Source: Acidobacteriota bacterium (GTDB lineage: Bacteria > Acidobacteriota > Vicinamibacteria > Vicinamibacterales > 2-12-FULL-66-21). From it: a stretch of DNA of 49,579 nt. The stretch is taken from positions 1 through 49,579 of the forward strand of contig QHWT01000046.1 in NCBI GenBank assembly GCA_003222675.1, given 5' to 3'. The position numbers and the translations under genes are program-made. Position 1 is the first letter of the stretch; every line of letters begins with the position of its first letter. Under the pieces are notes generated by a model. It saw only the letters and a list, made by a program, of their open reading frames with translations. It made no database searches and was not told the DNA's origin. This document shows, piece by piece, positions 9,721 to 39,695 of the stretch.

Positions 9721-9770
9721 CACGGTTGATCGCGTTTCGGTTGTCCGTAATGCGCGATCCGGAATGCGTT

Positions 9771-9826
9771 GAACCGTGAACCATGAACCATGAACCATGA
9801 ACCGTGAACCGTGAACCGTGAACCCT
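9771..9826. repeat. Heptamer array GAACCNT, eight units
   Basis: Eight perfect-phase 7-base units, GAACCGT or GAACCAT with a last GAACCCT, fill most of the gap between convergent genes. See the related arrays at 22462, 23844 and 39484, all with units ending in ACC when rotated. Confidence 0.9.
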
Positions 9827-21965: not shown

Positions 21966-22394
21966 ATGAGCGGCGTCTCTGCTGCCCGACCGCATCCGGG
22001 AGGGCCACCCGCCACGGTGTTGATCGTCGACGATGCGGCCGACGCGCGGTCGTTGTACGGCGAGTATCTCGAGTTCTGTGGATTCCGCGTGATCTCCGCG
22101 ATCGACACTCTGCAGGGTACGTCGATGGCGCAGCTTCACATGCCCGACATCATCCTCATGGATCTTGCGCTGCCGCTGATGAACGGCTGGGAGGCGATTC
22201 GACAGCTGCGGGCGAATCCGCGCACGCGCGGCATTCCTGTTGTCGCCGTCAGCGCGCATGCCGGCAGCGATGAACCTGCGCGCGCGCGCGAAGCAGGGGC
22301 CGACGTCTGTCTGACCAAACCCTGCGTTCCCTCGCAGGTGGCGCGCGCGATTTCGGCGCTTCTCACCTGGCATCGCCTCAGAATTGCACAATAA
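21966..22394 (+). CDS. Stand-alone receiver-domain response regulator
   Basis: A 142-residue single-domain CheY-like regulator. Pocket residues are D22-D23 (VLIVDDAADARSL), phospho-acceptor D66 (IILMDLALPLMNG), S96 and K118 (VCLTKPC). No output domain follows, so it must act by binding a partner. I chose the ATG at 21966 because a TTG at 21906 would add 20 residues of no family likeness. No kinase gene is adjacent. The upstream 180 bases contain a small hairpin (CCCAC/GTGGG near 21857-21876). Confidence 0.85.
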   Translation: MSGVSAARPHPGGPPATVLIVDDAADARSLYGEYLEFCGFRVISAIDTLQGTSMAQLHMPDIILMDLALPLMNGWEAIRQLRANPRTRGIPVVAVSAHAGSDEPARAREAGADVCLTKPCVPSQVARAISALLTWHRLRIAQ

Positions 22395-22411
22395 GGGCGG
22401 AGGACGGAGGA

Positions 22412-22443
22412 CCCGCCTTCGCCGCTCCGCGGCTTCGGCGCGG
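22412..22443. repeat. REP-like palindrome, family 2, copy A
   Basis: CCCGCC-TTC-GCCGC-TCC-GCGGC-TTC-GGCGCGG: two paired stem blocks separated by a symmetric three-base mismatch, with a three-base loop. It lies between convergent gene ends and could stop transcription from both sides. Copy B is at 39518. Confidence 0.65.
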
Positions 22444-22461
22444 CAGGCTGGCGCTTGGACA

Positions 22462-22517
22462 TCGAAGCGAGAACCGCGAACTTCGAACCTCGGACCTCGG
22501 ACCTCGGACCTCGGACC
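22462..22517. repeat. Heptamer array TCGGACC, eight units
   Basis: Eight units in perfect 7-base phase; the last five are TCGAACC then four TCGGACC, the first three are degenerate. It ends four bases before the stop of the lipo-cytochrome gene. The same unit recurs at 23844-23920. Confidence 0.9.
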
Positions 22518-22520
22518 TCG

Positions 22521-22901
22521 TCAGCGCAGAGTATAGAGGTAGGCTGCGATATCCCTGGCGTCCTCGTCCGTGACGCCCATATTCGGCATCACGTTCTTCG
22601 GGTCGACCTCCTGCGGATGCTGAATCCACTTCATCATGTTGCCAGGCGAGTTCGTCAGGTGTCCGGCGAGATAGCTCCGCACGGCGATGCGATCCAGCGG
22701 CGGACCGACAGTGGCATTCGCGCCGTGGATGCCCGGGATCGTATGGCATGCGGCGCATCCGTACTTCCCGATCGCTGACCGGCCGCGTTCGATATCGCCG
22801 CCGGTGATCATCGACGCTTCGCTCGTCGCCGATGGACGGCACCCGCCAAGGAGCGCGGCCGCAACGACGACGACGACGAACGGAGGGAGTTCACCGCGCA
22901 T
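22521..22901 (-). CDS. Small membrane-anchored c-type cytochrome
   Basis: A 126-residue monohaem cytochrome. The N terminus is a lipoprotein signal (VVVVVAAALLGGC, lipid Cys21). The haem motif is C49-A-A-C52-H53, and VMPNMGV supplies the distal Met (M105 or M108). The end (DEDARDIAAYLYTLR) is the usual last helix. It is the last gene of the alcohol dehydrogenase/oxidase operon and overlaps ctaG by 11 bases. It could carry electrons to the CuA or cytochrome domain of the oxidase. Confidence 0.9.
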   Translation of the reverse strand: MRGELPPFVVVVVAAALLGGCRPSATSEASMITGGDIERGRSAIGKYGCAACHTIPGIHGANATVGPPLDRIAVRSYLAGHLTNSPGNMMKWIQHPQEVDPKNVMPNMGVTDEDARDIAAYLYTLR

Positions 22902-23928
22902 GGGGCCTCGGCTTCAGCAGCCGGTGCGCCGACGTATCGGCCGACCCGAATGCGACACGTTTCTCGGACTCTCCCAGCCATGCCGCGAACAACGCCAGGC
23001 CGAACACGATGAAGATCATGCCCGCAGGGATCCACATGAGCAATCCCGCGAGCTGCTGATCGGCGAGCGCATCCACAGTCCACACCTGCGCCTGCTGCCC
23101 GTAATCGCCGTACCAGACCTCCGGCGAGACCGCGAGCAGCGCACCGAGCGCGCTGCTGTGGATCGCCGTCAGGAACACGTACAGGACGCCAAGGCCGTAG
23201 CCCGCGCGTCCATATCGTCCATTCACCATCGCCCACCAGAACAGCGACGCAGACAGCACGAAGCAGAGATGCTCCAGCGCATGGACTGCGTCGTTGCGGA
23301 GGGCTGCCTGATACCAGGACGGAATGTGCCACAGCCAGAGCGCTACCGCCTGCAGGATGAACACCGTCAGCGGCGCGGTGAGGTGATGCCACGCGCCGAC
23401 GACCTGTCGGCGTCGCGCACGACGCGCGATCGAGTCGCGTCCGCGATCGCCAAACGCCCAGAGCCACGCGAAGATTGGATGTCCGAACGTCAGCAGCGGC
23501 GCTGCCACGAGCATCAGCAGCGTGTGCTGCGTCATGTGCACCGAGAACAGGATCTGCGAGATCCAGGCGACGGGGGAGAGCAGCGCAACCACGATGGTCA
23601 TCGTGCCCGCGGCAAAGGACGCGAGCTGCCAGTAGGTCACCCCGCGTCCGCGCCCGGCACGTCGCCACAACCGCGCCACGCCGATCGCATACAGCACAAT
23701 AGAAATCGCAAGCGGGACGAGCACGTAGGGTTCCCACGTCCACTGCCATCTTCCCGCCTCGAGAACTCCACGCGCACCTTCGTGCGCCTCGACACCGCGT
23801 GAGCCGAGTAGTGCGATCACGAGCAGTGCGAGAGCAGTGGTTTGCGGACCTCGGACCTCGAACCTCGGACCTGGGCTCTCCGCCGTCGCGCCTCGCACCT
23901 CGCGCCTCGCACCTCGGATCACTGGCAT
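22891..23928 (-). CDS. ctaG: CtaG-type cytochrome caa3 oxidase assembly factor
   Basis: A polytopic membrane protein of the Caa3_CtaG family, which helps assemble the copper centre of caa3 oxidases. Recognisable parts are AISIVLYAIGVARLWRR, ILFSVHMTQHTLLMLVAAP, VALWLWHIPSWYQAALR and AGLLMWIPAGMIFIVFG, with His-rich loops expected for copper handling. The ATG at 23928 gives 345 residues and overlaps the preceding stop by ten bases. Its first 30 or so residues (IRGARREVRGATAESPGPRF) are encoded by a heptamer array, so the family-like sequence begins only at about residue 30, at a signal or first helix (ALALLVIALLG). A later GTG start is possible. Confidence 0.88.
   Translation of the reverse strand: MPVIRGARREVRGATAESPGPRFEVRGPQTTALALLVIALLGSRGVEAHEGARGVLEAGRWQWTWEPYVLVPLAISIVLYAIGVARLWRRAGRGRGVTYWQLASFAAGTMTIVVALLSPVAWISQILFSVHMTQHTLLMLVAAPLLTFGHPIFAWLWAFGDRGRDSIARRARRRQVVGAWHHLTAPLTVFILQAVALWLWHIPSWYQAALRNDAVHALEHLCFVLSASLFWWAMVNGRYGRAGYGLGVLYVFLTAIHSSALGALLAVSPEVWYGDYGQQAQVWTVDALADQQLAGLLMWIPAGMIFIVFGLALFAAWLGESEKRVAFGSADTSAHRLLKPRPHAR
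23844..23920. repeat. Heptamer array, 11 phase-locked units, inside the ctaG 5' end
   Basis: Eleven 7-base units in one phase: GCGGACC, TCGGACC, TCGAACC, TCGGACC, two divergent units (23872-23885), then TCGCGCC/TCGCACC alternating and TCGGATC. The two divergent units keep the phase, which argues for decay of an older array. Translated as the N terminus of CtaG. Confidence 0.85.
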
Positions 23929-24302
23929 GGCTGGTAGACAATCACTGGAATCTCGGTTGCAATGATCACGATGATGAACCACGCGCACATCAGCGCGCCG
24001 CCGTAGGCGAGGAACCGCGCGCGGAGCTCGGACGTTTCGTCCTGGTTCGCCGTCGGCGCCTCTGTCGGTCCACTGGTGCGCGCGCGCCACGCGCCGAGAC
24101 CCGCCAGCCCGACCAGCGCCAGCGCGACGGCCGACGCGACGTGCAGCATCCAGTCGTGCCGCTGTTCGCACGCGACATACGTCATGACGTAGTTCACCTC
24201 CAGCAGCGTCAGCCACACGAGAGGTCCGGCGAGGACGCCGGCCGCGAGCGCGGCCACCCGCCGCGGCTCATGCAATGCGCGGCGCAAAGTAGATGAGGGC
24301 AT
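23919..24302 (-). CDS. Small membrane protein of the oxidase operon, function unknown
   Basis: A 127-residue protein with three likely membrane helices: AALAAGVLAGPLVWLTLLEV, HVASAVALALVGLAGLGAW and GGALMCAWFIIVIIATEIPV. It ends in VYQPCQ. Two cysteines (YVACEQRH and the C-terminal one) and several His residues might matter for metals or haem. The ATG at 24302 overlaps coxC by 35 bases; TTG codons at about 24287 and 24275 are alternatives with less overlap. I do not recognise a named family. Its position between coxC and ctaG suggests a subunit or assembly role, perhaps in place of the short subunit IV that is missing here. Confidence 0.75.
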   Translation of the reverse strand: MPSSTLRRALHEPRRVAALAAGVLAGPLVWLTLLEVNYVMTYVACEQRHDWMLHVASAVALALVGLAGLGAWRARTSGPTEAPTANQDETSELRARFLAYGGALMCAWFIIVIIATEIPVIVYQPCQ

Positions 24303-24870
24303 AGATCGGCAGCCACGACAGCACGACGAAGTACCAATACATCGCGTTCTCGCTGACGTCGACGAAGCGGTGTTCGTCGATCGGCCCGGTGAACATCAGC
24401 ACCGTGAGCACGCCCGTGTCGACCCAGTCAGTCAGAATGTGGACGGTGTGAAATCCGAGCAGCGCCCACGTGATCGATCCGTATGCGTTCGAATCGAACG
24501 ACACATTGAGCGACATGAACTCGAAGACGCGGACGACGTTGAAGGCGAGACCAAACAACATGCACACGATCAGCCAGAGCTGCACCGTGCGGAGGTGGAA
24601 CTTCTCGGCCGCGCGCTTGGTCAGCTCGTTCGGAATCGTCGAGACGAGGAGGATGATCGTGTTGACCGTTCCCCACAGCAGGCCGGGCGGCAGAATGTTG
24701 CCGGGCGGCCAGTGCTCGTTGCGTCCCTTGAGATACAGGTCGGTCATGATCAGCAGCGCGAAGACCGTGCCTTCGATCGCCACCATGCCCATCGTCGCCC
24801 ACCACAGGATGCTGCGATGGCCGAAGGCGTGTTCAGGCAGCGGCGAGACATCGATCGCGGTCTGGGTCAC
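24268..24870 (-). CDS. coxC: Cytochrome c oxidase subunit III
   Basis: A 200-residue subunit III with five membrane helices, the short form seen in caa3-type oxidases. Features include ILWWATMGMVAIEGTVFALL, LRTVQLWLIVCMLFGLAFNV, the conserved acid in VRVFEFMSLN, and ALLGFHTVHILTDWVDTGVL. The start overlaps the coxA stop by four bases (ATGA). Subunit III stabilises the catalytic core and its proton uptake. Confidence 0.93.
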   Translation of the reverse strand: MTQTAIDVSPLPEHAFGHRSILWWATMGMVAIEGTVFALLIMTDLYLKGRNEHWPPGNILPPGLLWGTVNTIILLVSTIPNELTKRAAEKFHLRTVQLWLIVCMLFGLAFNVVRVFEFMSLNVSFDSNAYGSITWALLGFHTVHILTDWVDTGVLTVLMFTGPIDEHRFVDVSENAMYWYFVVLSWLPIYALIYFAPRIA

Positions 24871-26858
24871 GATGTCGCTTCCCTGGGCTCGAGCCGCGCC
24901 AGCTCCCGCTCCATCTCACGCGGCGGTACGCCCCGGTGCGGCCAGAACCAGCCGACCAGCGTGATGAACAACGGAATCGATCCCCACACGACGCCCCACG
25001 GGCTGAAGATCGACCAGATGAAGAGAATCGTCGTCGCGATCGCTGCGAGCAGCGGCCAGATCGATGGCCCCGGCGTCGGGTATCGATGATCCGGCTCCGC
25101 ATCGAGCAGGTGCGTGACGAGCACTTCGCACTTCTCCGGGTTCAGTCCGATGACGAATGGCGGCGTCAGTTCCGTGTGCCACAGCGGGTCCCTGCTGCCG
25201 ACGGTAGGCTGCGGCGAGAAGTTGTACACGGGGGGCGGCGATGAGGTGGACCATTCGAGATCCGCGGCGTCCCACGGATTGTCGGTCGCGGCCGCGCCCA
25301 CGCGCAGGCTGACGATCACGTTGATCAAATAGACGGTCAGCGCCACCGCGATAATCCCGGCGCCGATGCTTGCCAGCAGGTTCAGCGATCCCCAGCCCAT
25401 CGCAGCCGGATAGGTGTAAACACGTCGCGGCATGCCCTGCAGCCCGAGGATGTGCATCGGGAAGAACGTCAGGTTGAAACCGGTGAAGAACAGCCAGAAG
25501 GCGACCTTGCCCAGCCGTTCGTTCAGCATGCGTCCGGTGATTTTGGGAAACCAGAAGTGAATTCCCGCGAGCAACGGGAACACTGAGCCGCCGATGAGCA
25601 CGTAATGCAGATGCGCGACGATGAAGAACGTGTCGTGCAGCTGCAGGTCGAGGGGCACCGAGGCGACCATCACGCCCGTCAGCCCGCCAATCAGGAAGAC
25701 GAAAAACCACGCCAGCACGTAAAGCATCGGTGTCGTGAAGCGCACGCCGCGTCCCGTCCAGATGGTCGCAATCCAGCAGAAGATCTGCGTCGCGGTCGGA
25801 ACGACAATCATCATGCTGGCGGCCGTGAAGAAGCTCTGGCCGAACTGCGGCAGCCCCGTCGCGAACATGTGGTGCACCCACACGCCGAACCCGATGAAGG
25901 CTGTCGCGATGTTCGACAGCACGAGCGCCAGATAGCCGAACACCGGCCGCCGCGAGAAGGTGGAGACGATCGGCGAGATCATGCCGAGCGCCGGCAGGAA
26001 GATGATGTAGACCTCGGGGTGACCGAAGAACCAGAACAGGTGCTGCCACAGCAGCACGTCGCCACCTTCCGCGTAGTTGTAGAAGTGCGTCCCGACGAGG
26101 CGATCGAGGATCAGGCACGTGCTCGACAGCATCACCGCCGGCATCGCGAAAATCACCATGAAGGACACAACGAGCATCGCCCAGACGAAGAGCGGCATGC
26201 GGTTCAGCGCCATGCCCGGCGTGCGCAGCTTGAAGATCGTGACGATGAGGCTGATGGCCGTGACGAGCGCGGAGACCTCGGAGAACGTGATGAGCTGCGC
26301 CCAGACGTCAGGACGCTTGCCGATCCCGTACTCCGGTCCGGACAACGGCACGTACGAGAACCATCCAACGTCCGGTCCGACATTGGCGAAGAACATTGCG
26401 AAGAGGAAGATCCCTCCGAAGAGGAGCATCCAATAGCCGTACGCGACGAGGCGCGGCACCGCGATGGCGCGCGCCCCCACCTGCAGCGGCACCAGGTACA
26501 CGCCCATCCCGAGCATGACCGGCACGGCGAAGAGGAACATCATCGCGGTACCGTGGGTCGTGAAGATCTGATTGTAGAGATCGGGGCCGAGAATGGTGTT
26601 CTCGGGACGTGACAACTGCAGACGCATCAGCGCGGCGAGCACGCCGGCCATCGCAAACCACACGAACGCCGTCACGATGGTCCGCAGGCCGATCGACTTG
26701 TGATCGGTACTCCTCAGCCATCCGAGAAAGCCGCGAGGATCCGGCCAGGACGCCTCGTGGTGCCGCCGCTCCCGCTCCAGCGCCGCGGGCTCGAGCCGCG
26801 GATCATCGTAAACGAGCCGCGGATCCGCTTTCTGCTGCTCGAGCGGATGCGCGTTCAC
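24867..26858 (-). CDS. coxA: Cytochrome c oxidase subunit I (caa3 type, A family)
   Basis: A 663-residue catalytic subunit that reduces O2 to water and pumps protons. Haem a ligands are H102 (FTTHGTAMM) and H418; haem a3 ligand is H416 (VAHLHYV). CuB ligands are H280, H329 and H330, with the cross-link Tyr284 in GHPEVY. Glu282 in the same motif is the D-channel acid, so this is an A-family enzyme. Beyond the usual 12 helices, a C-terminal extension with two more helices (WPLLAAIATTILFIWSIFSP and GSIPLFITLVGWFW) is typical of caa3 oxidases. The start is a GTG overlapping the coxB stop (GTGA). Confidence 0.95.
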   Translation of the reverse strand: MNAHPLEQQKADPRLVYDDPRLEPAALERERRHHEASWPDPRGFLGWLRSTDHKSIGLRTIVTAFVWFAMAGVLAALMRLQLSRPENTILGPDLYNQIFTTHGTAMMFLFAVPVMLGMGVYLVPLQVGARAIAVPRLVAYGYWMLLFGGIFLFAMFFANVGPDVGWFSYVPLSGPEYGIGKRPDVWAQLITFSEVSALVTAISLIVTIFKLRTPGMALNRMPLFVWAMLVVSFMVIFAMPAVMLSSTCLILDRLVGTHFYNYAEGGDVLLWQHLFWFFGHPEVYIIFLPALGMISPIVSTFSRRPVFGYLALVLSNIATAFIGFGVWVHHMFATGLPQFGQSFFTAASMMIVVPTATQIFCWIATIWTGRGVRFTTPMLYVLAWFFVFLIGGLTGVMVASVPLDLQLHDTFFIVAHLHYVLIGGSVFPLLAGIHFWFPKITGRMLNERLGKVAFWLFFTGFNLTFFPMHILGLQGMPRRVYTYPAAMGWGSLNLLASIGAGIIAVALTVYLINVIVSLRVGAAATDNPWDAADLEWSTSSPPPVYNFSPQPTVGSRDPLWHTELTPPFVIGLNPEKCEVLVTHLLDAEPDHRYPTPGPSIWPLLAAIATTILFIWSIFSPWGVVWGSIPLFITLVGWFWPHRGVPPREMERELARLEPREATS

Positions 26859-27796
26859 TTCAGGGTCTCCAGGTAATCGAGAAGCGCCTGCAGCTCCTCC
26901 GAGGCAAGACCGGTCGCGGGCATCTTGTTGCCCGGCTTGATGTGTTGTGGGTCGGCAATCCAGCCCGCGAGATTGCCGCGTGTATTCGGGATGCTGCCAG
27001 CGCCAATCGCGCTGCGCGACGCGAGGTGCGTCAAGTCGGGCGCCGTGCGACCGCCCGCCAGTGTGCCGGCGATGCTGTGGCACATCGCGCAGGGACCGCG
27101 TTCGATGACGTCACGTCCGCGCATCTGCGACTCGGTGGCCGGCGGCGGCGCCGGACCGCGCATATGCGACAGCCACCGCTCGAAGTCGTCCGGCAGATCC
27201 GCGACGACGGTCAGTGCCATCTTCGCGTGCTGCGCGCCGCAGTACTCGGCGCACTGCCCGCGGTAGACGCCCGCGCGGTCAGCCTGGAGCCAGATCTCGG
27301 ACTGTCGGCCCGGCAGCAGATCGCGCTTGCCGTGCAGCGCGGGAATCCAGAGGCTGTGAATGACGTCGTTCGACTTCGCAACGATCCCGACCGGACGGCC
27401 GACCGGCACGTGAATCTCGTTCGCGGTCACCACGGTCAGCGATGGATCGGGGTTCAGATACTGAACGTCCCACCACCACTGGTTGCCGGTGATCTGGATG
27501 CGCAGCGCATTCTGCGCCTTCAATGCATCGAGATCTCGCCCGGTAATCTCGCTCGCGGTCAGCAGGACGAGCAGCGCGGCGACGCTGATGCCGACAGCCG
27601 CCCCGACCGATCCGGTGAGCGTGGCATCGCTTGCGTTCGACGCGCTCCGACGTCCGCGGGCGATCGCCATGGCCAGCGCGGTGAGCACCGAGATGAAGAC
27701 GACCGTGCACACCCAGAACATCACCCACCAGAGCTGATTGAGGCGCGCGGCCTGCACTCCGGCCGGGTGCAGCACGGACTGGATGAGCGGCGCCAT
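26855..27796 (-). CDS. coxB: Cytochrome c oxidase subunit II with fused cytochrome c domain
   Basis: A 313-residue subunit II. Two membrane helices (about 21-45 and 62-80) precede the cupredoxin domain. CuA ligands are H147, C182, E184, C186, H190 and M193 (QCAEYCGAQHAKM). A C-terminal cytochrome c domain carries C236-A-M-C239-H240 and distal M292 (NKMPATG). The fused cytochrome defines the caa3 type: electrons enter through this haem and pass to CuA. The ATG at 27796 shares one base with the preceding stop (TGATG). Confidence 0.95.
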   Translation of the reverse strand: MAPLIQSVLHPAGVQAARLNQLWWVMFWVCTVVFISVLTALAMAIARGRRSASNASDATLTGSVGAAVGISVAALLVLLTASEITGRDLDALKAQNALRIQITGNQWWWDVQYLNPDPSLTVVTANEIHVPVGRPVGIVAKSNDVIHSLWIPALHGKRDLLPGRQSEIWLQADRAGVYRGQCAEYCGAQHAKMALTVVADLPDDFERWLSHMRGPAPPPATESQMRGRDVIERGPCAMCHSIAGTLAGGRTAPDLTHLASRSAIGAGSIPNTRGNLAGWIADPQHIKPGNKMPATGLASEELQALLDYLETLK

Positions 27797-28329
27797 CAGC
27801 GATGACCCGTCTGTATCTGTTTCGTACCCTCGATCCGGTTCTCCGGCTTGCCCACGATCTGGTCGTCGTTCCGGCTCGTGGCGGCGTCCTGCGAGACGAG
27901 GCCCGCGAGCGACTGCACGTAGCCGACGAGCTGCCAGATCTGTTGATCGGGGATGTGACCGCCGAACGACGGCATGCCGTCGGGGCGTCCCTGCGAAATC
28001 GACGAGAAGATCTGATCGGCATGGCTGCCGTAAATCCACTTGTCGTCCATCAATGCCGGACCGATCGCGCCGCCGCCCGCGACACCGTGGCACCCGGCGC
28101 AGTTGTAGGCCGCGTAGAGACGCTTCCCTTCCGCGAGACCGTAGGCGTTGTATTGGTAGGGGCTCTGGACGTTGGAGATGGGCTGCGGCGAACCCGGTTG
28201 CAGCGTCGTCAACCGCACGGCGGTGCTCCGGTTCGCCGCCGCGGGAAGTTCCGTGTATCGACGTGTCTCACGCTCGCACCCGAGTGTCGCGGCCATCGTG
28301 CAAACGAGGGCGAAGGTGAAGCGTCCCAT
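27796..28329 (-). CDS. c-type lipo-cytochrome, likely electron acceptor of the alcohol dehydrogenase
   Basis: A 177-residue monohaem cytochrome with a lipoprotein-like signal (VCTMAATLGC, Cys18). The haem site is C77-A-G-C80-H81, and GMPSFGG supplies distal Met119. The C-terminal tail (about 30 polar residues) is longer than needed for the fold. It lies between the dehydrogenase/binding-protein pair and the oxidase genes, where XoxG-type cytochromes or cytochrome cL usually stand. I infer that it takes electrons from the PQQ enzyme and hands them to coxB. Confidence 0.88.
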   Translation of the reverse strand: MGRFTFALVCTMAATLGCERETRRYTELPAAANRSTAVRLTTLQPGSPQPISNVQSPYQYNAYGLAEGKRLYAAYNCAGCHGVAGGGAIGPALMDDKWIYGSHADQIFSSISQGRPDGMPSFGGHIPDQQIWQLVGYVQSLAGLVSQDAATSRNDDQIVGKPENRIEGTKQIQTGHR

Positions 28330-28331
28330 GG

Positions 28332-29174
28332 TCAGCTCCGTGGCGCTTCGACGCGAGGGATGCCGAACGCCGACAGAATCGAATCGATCTCTCCGCCGCG
28401 CCGGTCGAGGAAGTCGTTCAACTCGTCGCGCAAACGGATGTCGCGCTTTCGCACTCCCATCGAAATGTCGAACGCAAACGGCAGCGTGCGATCCATCGGC
28501 GGCGTCACCGGGGCGATGGTCATCGGCACCGGCGCATCTCTGGCGAAGTATCCGGCTTCGGGTCCCCACACGACAGCCGCGTCGATTGCGCCATGGGCGA
28601 CCGCGTCGATGATGCCGGACAGTGGATGCGGCTGACTGTAATCGCCGTAAACGGAATATCCGACGATGTTCTGCACCATTCCGCGGGCGGCCAGCGCGTG
28701 CGCGGGCGGCGTGTTGGCAAAATCGTCGCCGATCATCTGCACGCCGATGCGCAGGCGGCGCAGCCGTGAGTCGTCAAAAGATCCGAGCGCGAGGCCCCGA
28801 TCCGCGCGCGAGACGAACACATACGTGGATCGATAATACGGGCGCGTCGTGAGTGCGATGTCCGCGCCCGACGGGACGCCGATCATGAGGTCGCACGCTC
28901 CGGCCGAGAGCGTGTTGCGCACGAACCCGCGGCGCTGCGCCCACCACGTGTACTCGACGCGCGCGTGGCGGTCCGCCGCCAGCAACTCCGCAATCCTGTT
29001 CTCGAACCCTTCGCCGCGATCGTTCGAGAAGGGCAGGTTGTTGGGATCGGCGCACACGCGGAGCGGCGGCACACGACGGACACAGGCAGCGAACGCGCAG
29101 AGCACCGCGATCGCAACGACCCAGTGACTGGCATGTCGCGACCGAGGCCTCGCGGCTCGGGATTCGCCACTCAT
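28332..29174 (-). CDS. xoxJ: XoxJ/MoxJ-like periplasmic binding protein
   Basis: A 280-residue protein with a membrane or lipoprotein signal (VVAIAVLCAFAAC). A bilobal solute-binding fold follows, starting LRVCADPNNLPFSNDRGEGF. The pattern VCADPNNLPFSN...GFENRIAELLA...YTWWAQRRGFVRNTL is characteristic of the binding proteins linked to quinoprotein dehydrogenases. In methylotrophs the partner protein is thought to help maturation or activation of the dehydrogenase, perhaps PQQ or metal loading. The start overlaps the dehydrogenase stop by four bases (ATGA), supporting that partnership. Confidence 0.9.
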   Translation of the reverse strand: MSGESRAARPRSRHASHWVVAIAVLCAFAACVRRVPPLRVCADPNNLPFSNDRGEGFENRIAELLAADRHARVEYTWWAQRRGFVRNTLSAGACDLMIGVPSGADIALTTRPYYRSTYVFVSRADRGLALGSFDDSRLRRLRIGVQMIGDDFANTPPAHALAARGMVQNIVGYSVYGDYSQPHPLSGIIDAVAHGAIDAAVVWGPEAGYFARDAPVPMTIAPVTPPMDRTLPFAFDISMGVRKRDIRLRDELNDFLDRRGGEIDSILSAFGIPRVEAPRS

Positions 29175-31027
29175 GTCCCTCCTCCGACCGTGAACACGTA
29201 CAGCATCCCGCCCTTCGTCGTCGTCTTCTTGAGATCCGCGAGCATGCCCCCCCACCCGTTGCCCGCCGTGGCGTCCCGCGGATCGAGGTCCGCGCTCACG
29301 ATCGCGCCGGGCCATCCACCGATGCCTGCCGTCACCGCGATGTACTCGTGACCATCAGGACCTTTGAATGCCATCGGATGGCCGATGATGCCCGAGCCGC
29401 ACTTGAACTGCCAGAGCAACTGCCCGGTGTTCGCATCGACTGCCTTGAACCAGCCTTCCATCGTTCCGTAAAAGACGACGTCGTTTGCGACGAGTGCGCC
29501 GCTCCAGACGGGGAAACTCTCCTTGATCTGCCATTTCGGTTTCCCCGCCAGTGGATCCCAGGCCGTAAAGAATCCGCGGTTGCCGCCGGGGCCCGCCTTG
29601 TAAACGACGCTGGCGCCGACGTACGGCGTGCCCGCGATGTAGCTCACCGCCGTGCCCTCGAAATCCATGCACACGTTGTTATGAGGGATGTAAAGAAGAC
29701 CGGTCTTCGGCGAGAACGCCATCGGCTGCTCGTCCTTCGCGCCCGGCGCCGCCGGACAGATGTCGCGCACGACCATCCCCTGTTTCGATTCCTTTTCCTT
29801 GACGGGAATCAGGCGGCCGCTCTTGAGATCGACGCCCTTATTGGAGTTGACGGGCACGAACGGCGTCGCCGACAGCACTTCGCCCGTCAGCCGATCGATG
29901 ACGTACAGCAGTCCGTTGCGATCAGCACGCATGAGTACTTTGCGCGTGCCGCCGTTCATCTGAAGATCCGCAAGGACCATCTCGTTCACGCCGTCGTGGT
30001 CGTACAAATCATGCGGGCTGGTTTGATAAAACCATCGCGCCTCGCCCGTGTCGGGCGAACGGGCGAACATGCCGGCCGTCCATTTGTTGTCGCCTGGACG
30101 CTGCTCGGGATTCCATGGACCGGGATTCGCCGTGCCGTAATAGAGGAGGTCCGCTTCCGGATCGTAAGAGAGCCATCCCCACACGGTTCCGCCGCCGATG
30201 CGCCACGCTTCGCCCGGCCATGTCGTGATGCCCAGATCCTTGCCGCGGTCGCTGTCGTAGTGCGGCTTGAACGTCGGCCCGATCAGCACGTCCTTATCGG
30301 GGCCGGTGCTGTAGGCGCGCCACGCGGTTTTTCCGCTATCTGCGTCGAGCGCCGTCAGCCAGCCGCGCACGCCGAACTCTCCGCCGCTGTTGCCTACGAA
30401 TACCTTTCCCTTCACCACCAGCGGCGCCATGGTCATTGTCTCGCCGCGGTTGATGTCGGTGAGCTGAGTGACCCAGCGTTCCTTGCCCGTGGCGGCATCA
30501 ATCGACATCGTCCGGCCGTCGAGCGCATTGAAGAAGATCGCGCCGTTCGCGTAAGCCGCGCCGCGATTCACGATGTCGCAGCACGCCACGCCTTTCGCTG
30601 CGCCAAGCGGCTTCGGATCGTACTGCCACTTGATCGGCGCGCCGGGCTTCGTCAGATCGAACGCATAGAGAATGTTGGGCCACGGCGTGACCAGATACAT
30701 CGTGTCGCCGACCACGAGCGGCGGACCCTCGTGTCCGGCGGTCACGCCGGTGGAAAACGTCCAGGCCACTCCCATCTGCTTGACGTTCGCCGGCGTGATT
30801 TCACCCAGCGAGCTGAAGCGTGTCGCGGCATAGTTTTTCGCCGACATCACCCATTGGCCGTCGTCTTGTTGAAGACGCGCGGGATCCGCAAGGCTTCCGC
30901 TCAAGGCGCGTGCTGATGCGGGACTCTGTTGCACTGTGTCTGAGGTTGGCTTCTGGCAGGCGCTAATCATGAACGCGATGCCGGCGACGGTCAGGAATAG
31001 ACCGCGCCGCTGAGCTCGTATGCCCAT
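29171..31027 (-). CDS. xoxF: PQQ-dependent alcohol dehydrogenase, lanthanide (XoxF-like) type
   Basis: A 618-residue eight-bladed propeller quinoprotein that oxidises methanol or another primary alcohol in the periplasm. Metal and cofactor residues visible are the vicinal C149-C150 (GVACCDIVNRG), E217 (NSGGEFG), N301 (GTANPGPWNPE) and catalytic base D343. The extra acid D345, two residues on (LYDHDGVNE), is the mark of lanthanide-using enzymes; calcium enzymes have a small residue there. The start at 31027 gives a lipoprotein signal (LFLTVAGIAFMISAC, Cys24); an ATG at 31108 would add 27 residues. No Shine-Dalgarno is strong. First gene of the operon running to 22521. Substrate not provable from sequence. 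Confidence 0.92.
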   Translation of the reverse strand: MGIRAQRRGLFLTVAGIAFMISACQKPTSDTVQQSPASARALSGSLADPARLQQDDGQWVMSAKNYAATRFSSLGEITPANVKQMGVAWTFSTGVTAGHEGPPLVVGDTMYLVTPWPNILYAFDLTKPGAPIKWQYDPKPLGAAKGVACCDIVNRGAAYANGAIFFNALDGRTMSIDAATGKERWVTQLTDINRGETMTMAPLVVKGKVFVGNSGGEFGVRGWLTALDADSGKTAWRAYSTGPDKDVLIGPTFKPHYDSDRGKDLGITTWPGEAWRIGGGTVWGWLSYDPEADLLYYGTANPGPWNPEQRPGDNKWTAGMFARSPDTGEARWFYQTSPHDLYDHDGVNEMVLADLQMNGGTRKVLMRADRNGLLYVIDRLTGEVLSATPFVPVNSNKGVDLKSGRLIPVKEKESKQGMVVRDICPAAPGAKDEQPMAFSPKTGLLYIPHNNVCMDFEGTAVSYIAGTPYVGASVVYKAGPGGNRGFFTAWDPLAGKPKWQIKESFPVWSGALVANDVVFYGTMEGWFKAVDANTGQLLWQFKCGSGIIGHPMAFKGPDGHEYIAVTAGIGGWPGAIVSADLDPRDATAGNGWGGMLADLKKTTTKGGMLYVFTVGGGT

Positions 31028-31157
31028 CAAAGCCGTGCTAATGCAAGCGTACGACCACCAGTGAAGCGCGTGTCTTCGCAGGCGAAATCGCGATGAGCTC
31101 ACCCGCATCGCGTACGGTTCTCTTCGCCCGCGTGTCCGTCCGGGCTCCGCGATCCGT

Positions 31158-31769
31158 TCACTGATGGGCCAACCGACCAGGAACGTCGTTGACCGCAAGC
31201 AGTCTCGGGTTGCCGTCGTCGTACGCGATCGTCGTGATCGAGGCCGGACTGATTTCGAAACGATGCCAGAGGTTGAGCGGCGTCGCCGTCACGTGCAGGA
31301 CGGCCGCGCGAATCACGTCGCCGTGACTCACGGCGGCGATCACTTCCCCGGCATGACGCCGCTCGAGATCGCTGAGCGCTGTGATGATGCGGTGTTGCAC
31401 GTCCGCGGCACGCTCGCCGCCCGGCACGTTGGCGCCGGCGCGGAAGTCATTGAATGCTCGCCAGTCAGGAAGCGTGGAGAGTTGCGCGAAGGTGAGCCCC
31501 GTCCATTCGCCGAAATCAACTTCGTTCAGCCCGTCGAGTGTACGCACCTCGAGGGCGTGTGTTGCCGCAATCGGTGCGGCCGTAGCGAGTGTGCGCTCGA
31601 GCGGGCCCGAGTAGACCGCGGCGAGTGGTACGTCGCGCAAGTGATGGCACATCTCGTCCACTTGCCCTAAACCGCTGACGTTCAGGAGCACGCCCGGCTG
31701 ACGCGATGTGAGCCGCACGCCGACCGCATCCGTCATCGCGTGGCGAATCAGGAGGATAACCGAGCGCAC
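31158..31769 (-). CDS. Histidine phosphatase superfamily protein
   Basis: A 203-residue phosphatase of the phosphoglycerate-mutase-like superfamily. The catalytic motif is LLIRHAMTDAVG near the N terminus. YSGPLERTLATAAPIA holds the second conserved Arg, NEVDFGEWTG the catalytic acid region, and AAVSHGDVIRAAV the second His. The start is a GTG at 31769 with an AGGTGA site upstream. It lies between the ArsR regulator and the dehydrogenase gene on one strand; the 130-base gap to the latter may hold a promoter. Substrate unknown (sugar phosphate, nucleotide or alpha-ribazole phosphate are all possible). Confidence 0.85.
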   Translation of the reverse strand: MRSVILLIRHAMTDAVGVRLTSRQPGVLLNVSGLGQVDEMCHHLRDVPLAAVYSGPLERTLATAAPIAATHALEVRTLDGLNEVDFGEWTGLTFAQLSTLPDWRAFNDFRAGANVPGGERAADVQHRIITALSDLERRHAGEVIAAVSHGDVIRAAVLHVTATPLNLWHRFEISPASITTIAYDDGNPRLLAVNDVPGRLAHQ

Positions 31770-31841
31770 GCATTCACCTATTCGGCGGCCGTGGTGTACC
31801 TGCCGCGCGCGCAGGCCGGAAAGAATTCATACGCGAGGCGG

Positions 31842-32150
31842 TCAGCGCACCTTCATTCGCGGTTCGAACCGCTTCGAGCGCAGCAGTCGGCACAACCGCA
31901 GCACCTCGGACGAACTCACCGAGTAAAAGACCGCGCTGGCGTCGCGGCGTCGCTGCACCAATCCCGCGTGAAACAACACCTGCAGATGTTTCGACGCCGT
32001 GGACTGCCGCGTGTCGGAAGCTTCGGCAATTTGTCCGACAGCATGTTCGCCGCGCGCCAGCACCGAGAGGATTCGTACGCGCGTCGGATCGCCAAGCGCG
32101 CGCGCGCGGTTCGCAATTATCTGCTCATTGGCATCGGGCAAAGTCTTCAT
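31842..32150 (-). CDS. ArsR/SmtB-type transcriptional regulator
   Basis: A 102-residue winged-helix repressor (RARALGDPTRVRILSVLARG, then ASDTRQSTASKHLQVLFHAGL, then RRRDASAVFYSVSS). It has no cysteine in the recognition-helix region and no CVC metal motif, so it is not an obvious metal sensor. The ATG at 32150 is preferred; 32174 is an alternative. It is divergent from the epimerase gene and upstream of the phosphatase and dehydrogenase genes. A 10-base palindrome GCGCATGCGC at 32163-32172 lies just before its start and might be an operator. Confidence 0.85.
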   Translation of the reverse strand: MKTLPDANEQIIANRARALGDPTRVRILSVLARGEHAVGQIAEASDTRQSTASKHLQVLFHAGLVQRRRDASAVFYSVSSSEVLRLCRLLRSKRFEPRMKVR

Positions 32151-32277
32151 ATCGCGATGCGCGCGCATGCGCATATGGGCACGTTGGATCTTGCTTTGCT
32201 ACTTACCTTCGTGCTGACGGTTCGGTCGTAAGCAAGCTCGGCTCCATCCTTCGTCAGGGAAAAGGACCGCGTTCTCC

Positions 32278-33387
32278 ATGCAGATCCTTATTACAGGTGG
32301 CGCAGGCTTCATCGGCTCACACGTGGCGGATGAGCTCCTCCGCCACGGCCATCGCGTGCGCGCGCTCGATAATCTTTCCCCACAAGTACATGGGCCCGGT
32401 TCGGGGCGTCCTCACTACCTCAACGAAGACGTCGAGCTCGTTGAAGGAGACGTGCGCGATCGTCTTGCCGTACGGCTGGCCCTTGCCGGCGTGGATGCGG
32501 TGTATCACTTCGCATCGGCCGTTGGCGTCGGCCAGAGCATGTATGAGATCGATCACTACACCTCGGTGAACAACGGCGGCACCGCCGTGCTGCTGCAGGA
32601 ACTGATCGAGCGGCCCGTCGAACGGCTGATTGTCGCGTCGAGCATGAGCCTGTATGGCGAAGGGCTCTATCGCACGGCCGGCGGCGCGATTCGCGAAGGC
32701 CGTGAGCGATCGCTGGAGGAGTTGAAGCGCGGCGAGTGGGAACTCCGCGACGAAGACCACGAGGCGCTGGTGCCGCTGCCCACACCGGAGTGGAAGTCTC
32801 CGTCGTTGTCATCCATCTATGCGCTCTCGAAATTCGACCAGGAGCGGATGTGCCTGATGATCGGTCGCGCATACGGCATCGCGACGATTGCGCTGCGTTT
32901 CTTCAACGTGTTCGGCACGCGCCAGGCGCTGTCGAATCCGTACACCGGCGTGCTCGCGATTTTCGCATCGCGCCTGTTGAATAACAACGCCCCGCTCATC
33001 TTCGAAGACGGCCTGCAGCGCCGCGATTTCGTGAGCGTCCATGACGTCGCGCGCGCCTGCCGTCTCGCGCTCGACGTCCCCGGCGCCGCAGGCCAGGCGT
33101 TCAACATCGGGAGCGGCCACGCCTACACGATTCGGGAGGTTGCCGGCCTGCTCGGCGCCATTCTCGGGCGGCCGACCGAGCCTGACGTCTGCGGCAAGTA
33201 CCGCGTGGGCGACACCCGCCACTGCTTCGCGGACATCACGCGCGCGGTGGAGGTGCTCGGCTACGAGCCCAGCATCGCGCTCGAAGACGGCCTGGTCGAG
33301 CTCGCCGCATGGCTGCAGGATCAGGCGGCCGTCGATCGCGTCGCGCAGGCGAGCCGGGAGCTCGCTTCAAGGGGGTTGACGGTATGA
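32278..33387 (+). CDS. NAD-dependent sugar-nucleotide epimerase/dehydratase (extended SDR)
   Basis: A 369-residue extended short-chain dehydrogenase. The NAD site is ITGGAGFIGSHVADELL. Catalytic residues lie in ASSMSLYGEG and SIYALSKFDQE (Tyr-x3-Lys). The sequence most resembles NDP-hexose 4-epimerases such as UDP-glucose or dTDP-sugar 4-epimerase. It opens a long + strand operon; the next start overlaps its stop (ATGA). It should supply an activated sugar for the glycosyltransferases downstream. An AAGGA site lies 11 bases before the ATG. Confidence 0.92.
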   Translation: MQILITGGAGFIGSHVADELLRHGHRVRALDNLSPQVHGPGSGRPHYLNEDVELVEGDVRDRLAVRLALAGVDAVYHFASAVGVGQSMYEIDHYTSVNNGGTAVLLQELIERPVERLIVASSMSLYGEGLYRTAGGAIREGRERSLEELKRGEWELRDEDHEALVPLPTPEWKSPSLSSIYALSKFDQERMCLMIGRAYGIATIALRFFNVFGTRQALSNPYTGVLAIFASRLLNNNAPLIFEDGLQRRDFVSVHDVARACRLALDVPGAAGQAFNIGSGHAYTIREVAGLLGAILGRPTEPDVCGKYRVGDTRHCFADITRAVEVLGYEPSIALEDGLVELAAWLQDQAAVDRVAQASRELASRGLTV

Positions 33388-38424: not shown

Positions 38425-39695
38425 ATTTCGTCGTTTTTGGATTGACGATTAGTTCGGCGTGGGGCAACGGTCACGCGACCCCCTGGCGCGGGCTGTGCCG
38501 CGCGCTGGCGGCGCGCGGGCACTGCGTCACGTTCTTCGAGCGGGACGTGCCGTACTATGCGGCGCATCGCGACGCTCCCGAGCCGGCTGGGTGCGAGCTG
38601 CGGCTCTACGGCGGGTGGAGCGACACCTACGAAGAGGCGCGCGCCGCTGTTTCCGGGGCGGACGTGGCGATCGTGACGTCGTATTGTCCCGACGCGCAGG
38701 AGGCGTCGGATCTCGTGCTCGCGTCGCGAGGGCCGCTCAGGGTCTTCTACGACCTGGACACCCCCGTCACGCTCGCGCGGCTCGCGCGCGGTCTGCACGT
38801 CGACTATCTACCGGCGGACGGTCTGGCACCGTTCGACCTGGTCCTCAGTTTCACCGGCGGCCGTGCGCTCGACGCGCTCAAAACGGATCTTGGCGCACGC
38901 CTCGTCGCGCCGCTCTACGGCAGCGTGGATCCGGCGGCGCATCATCCGGTGCCGACGGATCCCGACCATCATTTTGATTTCACCTATCTCGGCACGTATT
39001 CCGCGGATCGCCAGCCGGCACTCGAAGAGTTGTTCATCAATCCCGCTCGCCGCAGAGCGGACCGACGTTTTGCGCTCGCCGGGTCGATGTATCCGGCCGA
39101 CGGCTTCCCGTGGCAGCCGAACATCTTTTATCTCGCGCACATGCCGCCAACGGACCATCCATCGTTCTATTGCTCGTCGGCGTTGACGCTCAACATCACG
39201 CGGGGGCCGATGGCGGAAATGGGGTTCTGTCCTTCAGGTCGGCTCTTCGAAGCGGCCGCATGCGGCACCCCCATCCTGAGCGACTGGTGGGAAGGGCTCG
39301 ACACGTTTTTTACTCCACGGGCCGAGATCCTGATTGCATGCACGACGGAAGATGTCCTCGACGCGCTGGACCTCGATCCCGCGGAGCGGCGGCGAATTGG
39401 TCAGGCCGGCCGGGCGCGTGCGCTCGCCGAGCACACCGCCGCAGCACGCGTCGTGGAACTCGAGCGGCTGTTGACCGGTCTCCGGCAGCCGATAACCGAG
39501 CGACAACCGTCAACCGACCCGCCTGCGCCGCAAAGCGGCTACGGCGGGCAAGCCGACCACCGGCAACCGACAACCGACAACCGACAACCGATGCGAGACA
39601 CCAATGTGGGGAATCATTCCGGCGGCGGGGCAGGGCAGCCGCATGCAGCCGCTGGCGTTCTCGAAGGAACTCCTGCCGGTCGGCAGCCGGCGTGA
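38421..39695 (+). CDS. CgeB-like glycosyltransferase, paralogue 2, with repeat-derived C-terminal tail
   Basis: A 424-residue protein. Residues 1-353 match the family and are close to the paralogue at 43260: GLTISSAWGNGHATPWRGL, YDLDTPVTLARL, LSFTGGRALD, YLGTYSADRQPAL, SGRLFEAAACGTPILSDWWE. From about residue 354 the frame runs through a heptamer array and REP-like family 2 copy B (tail RQPITERQPSTDPP and QPTTDNRQP). It then enters the next gene in a different frame, ending 92 bases inside it. The natural stop was probably lost when the repeats arrived. The receptor sugar is unknown. Confidence 0.85.
   Translation: MNFVVFGLTISSAWGNGHATPWRGLCRALAARGHCVTFFERDVPYYAAHRDAPEPAGCELRLYGGWSDTYEEARAAVSGADVAIVTSYCPDAQEASDLVLASRGPLRVFYDLDTPVTLARLARGLHVDYLPADGLAPFDLVLSFTGGRALDALKTDLGARLVAPLYGSVDPAAHHPVPTDPDHHFDFTYLGTYSADRQPALEELFINPARRRADRRFALAGSMYPADGFPWQPNIFYLAHMPPTDHPSFYCSSALTLNITRGPMAEMGFCPSGRLFEAAACGTPILSDWWEGLDTFFTPRAEILIACTTEDVLDALDLDPAERRRIGQAGRARALAEHTAAARVVELERLLTGLRQPITERQPSTDPPAPQSGYGGQADHRQPTTDNRQPMRDTNVGNHSGGGAGQPHAAAGVLEGTPAGRQPA
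39484..39589. repeat. Heptamer array GACAACC interrupted by REP-like family 2, copy B
   Basis: Upstream heptamers (GGCAGCC, GATAACC, a four-base slip, GACAACC, GTCAACC) lead into the palindrome at 39518-39548: CCCGCC-TGC-GCCGC-AAA-GCGGC-TAC-GGCGGG. Six more heptamers follow, the last three being exact GACAACC. The palindrome has the same stem and the same three-base internal mismatch as copy A at 22412. The whole block is translated. Confidence 0.85.

Follow-up and report, generated by a model that had tools for sequence, protein, structure and literature searches.

A lanthanide-type XoxF gene row of an Acidobacteriota bacterium and its linked A-type oxidase with replaced proton-channel residues

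We analysed a 49,579-nucleotide stretch of DNA from an Acidobacteriota soil bacterium (assembly GCA_003222675.1, contig QHWT01000046.1), hereafter called the window, in which nine genes at 22521-31027, all on the minus strand, encode a lanthanide-type XoxF dehydrogenase, its accessory protein XoxJ, two c-type cytochromes, the oxidase subunits CoxB, CoxA and CoxC, a small membrane protein and CtaG. We consider it probable that these genes encode an alcohol-to-oxygen electron chain whose terminal A-type oxidase takes up protons by a rewired and perhaps non-pumping route. The gene row itself is already in print; judged from the aligned sequences, its new part is the altered proton-channel residues of the oxidase, which the initial annotation of this DNA had overlooked. 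In the openly licensed PMC literature we recognised no treatment of channel residues in XoxF-linked oxidases.

In the proposed chain, XoxF, with pyrroloquinoline quinone (PQQ) and a lanthanide, would oxidise a short alcohol, possibly methanol, in the periplasm. We infer that the lipid-anchored cytochrome c 1 would receive the electrons from XoxF and that they would travel on to the cytochrome c domain of CoxB, to CuA, to CoxA and finally to O2, while XoxJ would assist XoxF, CtaG would load CuB, and the small three-helix protein would probably act as an accessory subunit. Because the canonical lysine of the K-channel is replaced by Gln in CoxA and the D-channel is largely dismantled, protons would enter elsewhere, and few or none would probably be pumped. 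The missing channel residues thus suggest that the alcohol is burned with unusual or little energy capture.

Proton-channel residues of the linked CoxA

The coxA gene (24867..26858) encodes subunit I with an A-type fold (TIGR02891, E 1.3e-205), in which Glu278 and Tyr280 are kept and the canonical D- and K-channel residues are replaced. The position names follow the list in the available portions of PMC3084760, and were mapped onto the window by motifs and alignment. Codon 358 (CAG, 25785..25787) places Gln at the K-channel lysine, Lys354 of P. denitrificans, codon 131 (GCC, 26466..26468) places Ala at the D-channel entry residue, Asp124, and codon 194 (GAG, 26277..26279) gives helix IV a new Glu, at a position that is occupied by Gly in other CoxA proteins and lies in a gap-free part of the alignment with PDB sequences. 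The window protein therefore falls outside the A1-type definition in both channels: the D-channel residues Tyr35, Asn113, Asp124, Asn131, Ser134, Ser193 and Asn199 are replaced by Thr, Val, Ala, Val, Gly, Ala and Ser, respectively, and among the K-channel residues, Thr351 and Ser291 are kept and Lys354 is Gln.

These replacements are shared by the relatives of the protein. The main count comprised 64 CoxA rows covering the site, the window protein and 63 copies found at 62 loci, and all 64 had Gln at position 354, while Asp124 was kept in two rows and Asn113 in none. As controls, 20 CoxA proteins outside the clade were chosen by tree position and not by their letters; Asn113 and Asp124 were present in all 20, Lys354 was present in 19, the remaining one having Ile, and Glu278 was present in 14, with Ala in the other six. 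A reduced set was composed of 55 linked-type rows and eight sister rows. Within it, the linked-type rows all kept Glu278 and Tyr280, none kept Lys354 or Asn113, two kept Asp124, and three kept Asn199, which was Glu in 26; the eight sister rows also had Gln at 354 without exception. Furthermore, the helix IV Glu was present in 55/55 linked-type and 8/8 sister rows, against Gly in 18 and Ile in two of the controls, and an Arg at CoxA residue 59 was found in every linked-type row and in none of the controls. The loss of Asp124 belongs almost entirely to the XoxF3 type, but L055, L059 and L146 keep the Asp.

The tree and the tables omit 14 close loci (13 Mesorhizobium and one Microvirga), all with Gln354, as well as pieces shorter than 480 or 450 amino acids (and so L055 and the second CoxA of L028), second copies of one protein, L178, and L167, which was removed as a presumed duplicate and has Asn113, Asp124, Glu278 and Lys354. 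The 55 linked-type rows include L139, which is without XoxF3, and L140, which lies on another contig, and two of the rows, L093 and L187, are identical. The further search for CoxA covers nine of its 14 matches.

The host carries two further CoxA genes, and both products keep Asn113 and Asp124. One of them, the third CoxA of the host (G000:C22:133692-135119, L106/L108), keeps Asn113, Asp124 and Glu278 and has Ile at Lys354. We also compared the CoxA copies within five further genomes, which by their locus titles belong to a Mesorhizobium, Sphingomonas horti, a Massilia, a Gemmatimonad and an Opitutus. The linked copies carried the channel changes, and 13 of the 15 other copies covering the K site had Lys, with Gln in L171 and in the fragment L160; the badly aligned L178 was left out of this count.

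A tree of 85 CoxA sequences, with support given only by the Shimodaira-Hasegawa-like approximate likelihood ratio test (SH-aLRT), placed 53 XoxF-linked rows together with L139, L140 and L186 in one group of 56 rows (SH-aLRT 96). The adjacent group consisted of the eight unlinked CoxA proteins, which have Gln354 with Asp124 kept (SH-aLRT 100), and the two together formed a group of 64 rows, all with Gln354 (SH-aLRT 97). When the 14 trait columns were removed, all three groups persisted, with SH-aLRT values of 99 for the XoxF3-type group, 100 for the sister group and 85 for the 64-row group. The tree requires at least three changes at the K site and two at the D site; if the other CoxA proteins are the outgroup, the change from Lys to Gln would have come first and the loss of Asp124 later, inside the XoxF3 branch. 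Gln354 was rejected as the sole mark of XoxF linkage, since the eight unlinked sister proteins have it and the XoxF-linked CoxA of locus L181 does not.

One of the sister oxidases (L184:6548-14742), with Gln354 and Asp124 kept, lies with CtaG next to a GMC flavoprotein and to a cytochrome c in which two cytochrome stretches were matched. This arrangement suggests a parallel pairing of the sister oxidase with another enzyme, and other dedicated pairs may exist.

Linkage of xoxF with the oxidase genes

The xoxF gene (29171..31027) encodes a PQQ-dependent alcohol or methanol dehydrogenase with a lipobox-like signal. Its product matched TIGR03075 at 624.7 bits, with a cut-off of 480.05 (E 1.2e-187), and the closest solved structures were 4mae (E 9.8e-202), a methanol dehydrogenase from Methylacidiphilum fumariolicum, and then 6oc5, a XoxF. 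Aligned to the lanthanide enzyme 4mae, the window protein has the vicinal cysteine pair and the residues E172, N256, D299 and D301. Asp301, the extra Asp that marks lanthanide enzymes, was found in all 80 rows covering it (81 rows with the window, the piece of L059 stopping short). By these features, the dehydrogenase is a lanthanide-type XoxF, as the initial annotation had proposed.

For the comparison with other genomes, one genome per species was scanned with an alignment of five XoxF sequences, and the best 80 loci from at least 551 confirmed stretches were retained, a set that favours close relatives and contains many Mesorhizobium. The query alignment was 63-90% identical to the proteins of these 80 loci, Methylobacterium oxalidis and Microvirga among them, and the window XoxF was 90% identical to that of L024. 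Since the relatives include species whose XoxF is assigned to XoxF3 in the available portions of PMC8561711, namely Methylobacterium oxalidis and Microvirga, the window protein is likely best placed in XoxF3. Two observations weigh against this label: the position of Trp300, given for the Methylobacterium XoxF3 in those portions of PMC8561711, is His in the window, and a quick FastTree of 88 rows placed the window protein near the seven rows set as outgroup.

All nine window proteins were run as profiles over the 80 loci. Sixty-four loci extend at least 5 kb beyond xoxF on its downstream side, and 61 of them carried coxA on the same strand nearby, in four phyla (Acidobacteriota 13/13, Pseudomonadota 45/48, Gemmatimonadota 2/2 and Verrucomicrobiota 1/1); the order of the nine genes was identical in 32 of the 64. 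In the sixteen loci with less than 5 kb downstream, coxA was seen in four and not in 12, one of which is L090. With this order and linkage so widely repeated, a chance or assembly artefact was rejected, and the operon that the initial annotation had predicted is indeed conserved and not confined to this genome. In an Opitutus metagenome-assembled genome, two tandem copies of coxA with coxC follow xoxF (L067:7219-11781), both with Gln354.

The operon is not a novelty, since the xoxF3-cox cluster of Acidobacteria has been published. The available portions of PMC10875860, which deals with XoxF3 clusters in both Acidobacteria and Gemmatimonadetes, report the same gene set in all 12 Acidobacteria genomes there with XoxF systems, and a protein of 110-130 amino acids between CoxIII and CtaG in most clusters, and they cite Keltjens et al. 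2014 for cox genes and ctaG in a few xoxF3 operons. The window matches this cluster in its gene set and in the small protein between coxC and ctaG; NRAMP genes are reported for the published clusters. The oxidase channel residues, which we examined in the window, receive no mention in those portions of the paper. According to the initial annotation, the xox clusters of methylotrophs normally end with the cytochrome; this fails for XoxF3, for which PMC10875860 describes the linkage to cox genes.

The proteins of the row also diverged in parallel. Pairwise XoxF distances were correlated with those of CoxA (r 0.68), CoxB (0.80), cytochrome 1 (0.70), CoxC (0.42), CtaG (0.67), XoxJ (0.62) and the small protein (0.72). 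The tests used 42-46 loci, and none of 999 permutations reached the observed r, a result to which common ancestry alone may contribute; of the 80 loci, 46 entered the analysis after the omission of 15 close relatives and of 19 loci without a CoxA match above 900 bits.

Remaining proteins, cofactor genes and DNA features

All nine genes and their spacing were recovered from the open reading frames as first annotated. xoxJ (28332..29174), a periplasmic binding-protein-like accessory with a lipobox-like signal (TIGR03871, E 1.5e-90), adjoins xoxF with an overlap of four bases, and is followed after the sole gap, of two bases, by the gene for cytochrome c 1 (27796..28329; PF13442, E 1.1e-16), a lipoprotein-like protein at the XoxG position and the proposed electron acceptor of XoxF. 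This gene overlaps coxB (26855..27796) by one base, and the further overlaps down the row are 4, 4, 35, 10 and 11 bases. CoxB is subunit II (TIGR02866, E 5.3e-48; PF00034), and both its CuA motif and the CxxCH of its C-terminal cytochrome c domain are visible by direct reading of the sequence. Together with the family of CoxA and its Glu278 and Tyr280, this bears out the caa3-like oxidase of the initial annotation. coxC (24268..24870; PF00510, E 4.8e-09) encodes subunit III, and ctaG (22891..23928; PF09678, E 6e-58) encodes the caa3-type CuB assembly factor. Its start codon is uncertain because an array of 7-bp repeats (23845-23918) sits in its first codons. The gene for cytochrome c 2 (22521..22901; PF00034, E 2.2e-08), which is also lipoprotein-like, closes the row.

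From this spacing, we infer that the nine genes share a single transcript. Scans of 22300-32300 were uninformative, with no sigma-70-like promoter against 1.7 expected from shuffled sequences and six terminator-like sites against 5.4 expected, and no part of the window matched Rfam at the gathering scores. Further 7-bp tandem arrays occur at 22471-22520, 9770-9824 and 39553-39591, the first of which runs up to the cytochrome c 2 stop codon, and a 17-base repeat unit had seven matches against 0.04 expected.

The small protein (23919..24302, 127 amino acids) is a candidate accessory subunit of the oxidase. Neither Pfam nor NCBIfam gave it a match at E 0.001, and its homologues were present at 59 of the 80 loci. 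Its Cys45 and Cys126 were conserved at 90% or more in 43 sequences (the window and 42 of the 59 homologues), and from the positive-inside rule they should face the periplasm. AlphaFold2 predicted three helices, with a predicted local distance difference test score of 89.3. The available portions of PMC10875860 liken the small protein of the clusters to vesicle-transport proteins, a role left without support here, since no PDB fold matched at E 0.001 or better (best E 0.39). A role as accessory subunit, which is probable, or as assembly helper would fit the position of the gene.

Lipobox-like signals were recognised by eye in XoxF (MISAC), XoxJ (AFAAC), cytochrome 1 (TLGC) and cytochrome 2 (LGGC, read directly). 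The initial annotation had noted such signals in the dehydrogenase and both cytochromes and had built on them a hypothetical membrane supercomplex. The signals hold, but the count is four proteins, with XoxJ as the fourth. A rough heuristic, which errs both ways (L028 is a seeming false match, and L072 and L100 are seeming misses), found a lipobox in 27 of 80 XoxF proteins, mainly from Acidobacteriota and Gemmatimonadota, and in 16/76 XoxJ, 56/78 cytochrome 1 and 10/50 cytochrome 2 proteins. These numbers give no support to the view that XoxF is lipidated in general.

As for the cofactor, PqqC had no match in the host genome (G000, 99.9% complete) or in seven further genomes (those of L087, L046, L061, L079, L078, L068 and L025) among the ten XoxF-bearing genomes searched, some of which are metagenome-assembled and of which the host alone came with a completeness value, while a Methylobacterium and a Mesorhizobium genome gave matches; PqqE matches were all below the cut-off. 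Because the host is without a match where two other genomes have one, PQQ may be scavenged from outside or from neighbours, or may be made by enzymes that these models miss. The host genome also contains 64 matches to PQQ_2 repeats, suggesting many quinoprotein-like beta-propellers. In the available portions of PMC12482762, the XoxF3 of Methylosinus trichosporium is reported to rise strongly with cerium.

Alternative readings and known oxidases

It seems rather unlikely to us that the enzyme is an ordinary proton-pumping caa3 oxidase, in which Gln354, the helix IV Glu and a polar residue at 351 replace the classical motifs and energy capture is normal. The conservation of Glu278 and Tyr280 agrees with it, as does that of Ser291 in 53, Asn131 in 47 and Tyr35 in 36 of the 55 linked-type rows, and the invariant helix IV Glu could belong to a substitute proton path; however, Asn113, Asp124, Asn199 and Lys354 are absent or nearly so from these rows, and the window protein also lacks Tyr35, Asn131, Ser134 and Ser193. 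Mutants of model oxidases at Asp124, Asn131, Asn199 or Lys354 lose pumping or activity. A doubtful alternative makes the module a device for alcohol or aldehyde detoxification, or for overflow disposal, rather than for growth, with O2 reduction deliberately poorly coupled. The loss of the channel residues and the scarcity of PqqC matches would suit such a role, and Fae, the formaldehyde-activating enzyme, had no match in the host genome, but Fae is one of several formaldehyde routes, and the only one searched, and cofactor scavenging is compatible with growth use.

The oxidase might instead serve the whole respiratory chain, for example with bc1 or alternative complex III, and adjoin xoxF through a shared need for the lipo-cytochrome, which we regard as improbable. 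Five of 199 Acidobacteriota genomes (G000, G042, G197, G179 and G192) have a XoxF with at least 57% identity, a cut-off drawn post hoc after the list had been inspected, and a CoxA with at least 59% occurred in six, namely all five of these and G167; in G192, xoxF and coxA lie on separate contigs. G167 therefore has the oxidase type without XoxF3, as its only XoxF match at E 1e-100 is 42% identical, and its CoxA is the row nearest the window in the CoxA tree. Likewise, around the basal CoxA relative L186, in G298, no xoxF was found within the 18 kb fetched (a genome-wide XoxF search was not made), and conversely, xoxF stands without cox genes at three loci, L029, L099 and L102, each of which extends at least 5 kb downstream. 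Such cases favour the general role, whereas the linkage in four phyla, the parallel divergence of XoxF and the cox proteins, and the additional CoxA genes that both the host and the five further genomes possess speak for an oxidase of its own. The dedicated chain of the initial annotation thus stays plausible, given the two other host CoxA genes and the co-variation, but the dedication of the oxidase to XoxF3 is not absolute, because the oxidase occurs without XoxF3 in G167.

The reading that we favour, an alcohol-to-oxygen chain with rewired and perhaps non-pumping proton uptake, has further points against it besides G167, L186 and these three loci. The K path keeps polar residues, with Ser291 as counted above and Thr, Ser or Asn at 351 in 51 of the 55 linked-type rows; because these remain, and because the available portions of PMC3084760 describe B- and C-type oxidases with altered K-channels and no D-channel, lost motifs are no proof of lost pumping. 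If the other CoxA proteins are the outgroup, the Lys-to-Gln change would be older than the link to XoxF and not specific to it. In the XoxF-linked locus L181 (6893-13814), which lies outside the set of 80 and has xoxF downstream of ctaG, Glu278 is replaced by Trp and Lys354 by Gly, and Asn113, Asp124 and the helix IV Gly are kept. Furthermore, L090, with 4.1 kb downstream, carries xoxF without cox genes, and the Acidobacteriota genomes G011, G039 and G052, the first with a xoxF-xoxJ-cytochrome cluster, have XoxF at 55-56% identity, slightly below the cut-off, and no CoxA above 42%. The missing PqqC match of the host counts on the same side. Our confidence was lowered slightly because of the post hoc XoxF cut-off and the case of L181. 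We put forward more tentatively the wider proposal that the XoxF3-linked oxidases form a distinct A-type branch, spread with its dehydrogenase over four phyla, which may have abandoned the classical D- and K-channels and would pump little or nothing during O2 reduction, as an inbuilt and weakly coupled electron outlet for alcohol oxidation that depends on lanthanides.

XoxF3 genes are widespread among soil bacteria, and if their oxidase is private and unusually coupled, the number of XoxF genes would give too high an estimate of the energy gained from methanol. The enzyme would then also be a naturally occurring A-type oxidase that lacks both textbook proton channels, with which the need for Lys354 and Asp124 in turnover and pumping could be tested.

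The window oxidase resembles the A1-type aa3 and caa3 enzymes, as classified in the available portions of PMC3084760, in its TIGR02891 match, Glu278, Tyr280, the HH pair, a subunit II with CuA and cytochrome c, and CtaG. It differs from them in the replacement of Lys354 by Gln, in the loss of Asp124, Asn113 and Asn199 from most of its relatives, and in the new helix IV Glu. Variants of the K- and D-channels are known among archaeal family A oxidases, for which one hypothesis in the available portions of PMC8239418 holds that the K-channel was lost repeatedly. Those variants belong to archaeal lineages, and the text of that paper contains neither XoxF nor methanol, whereas the oxidases described here form a bacterial clade tied to XoxF.

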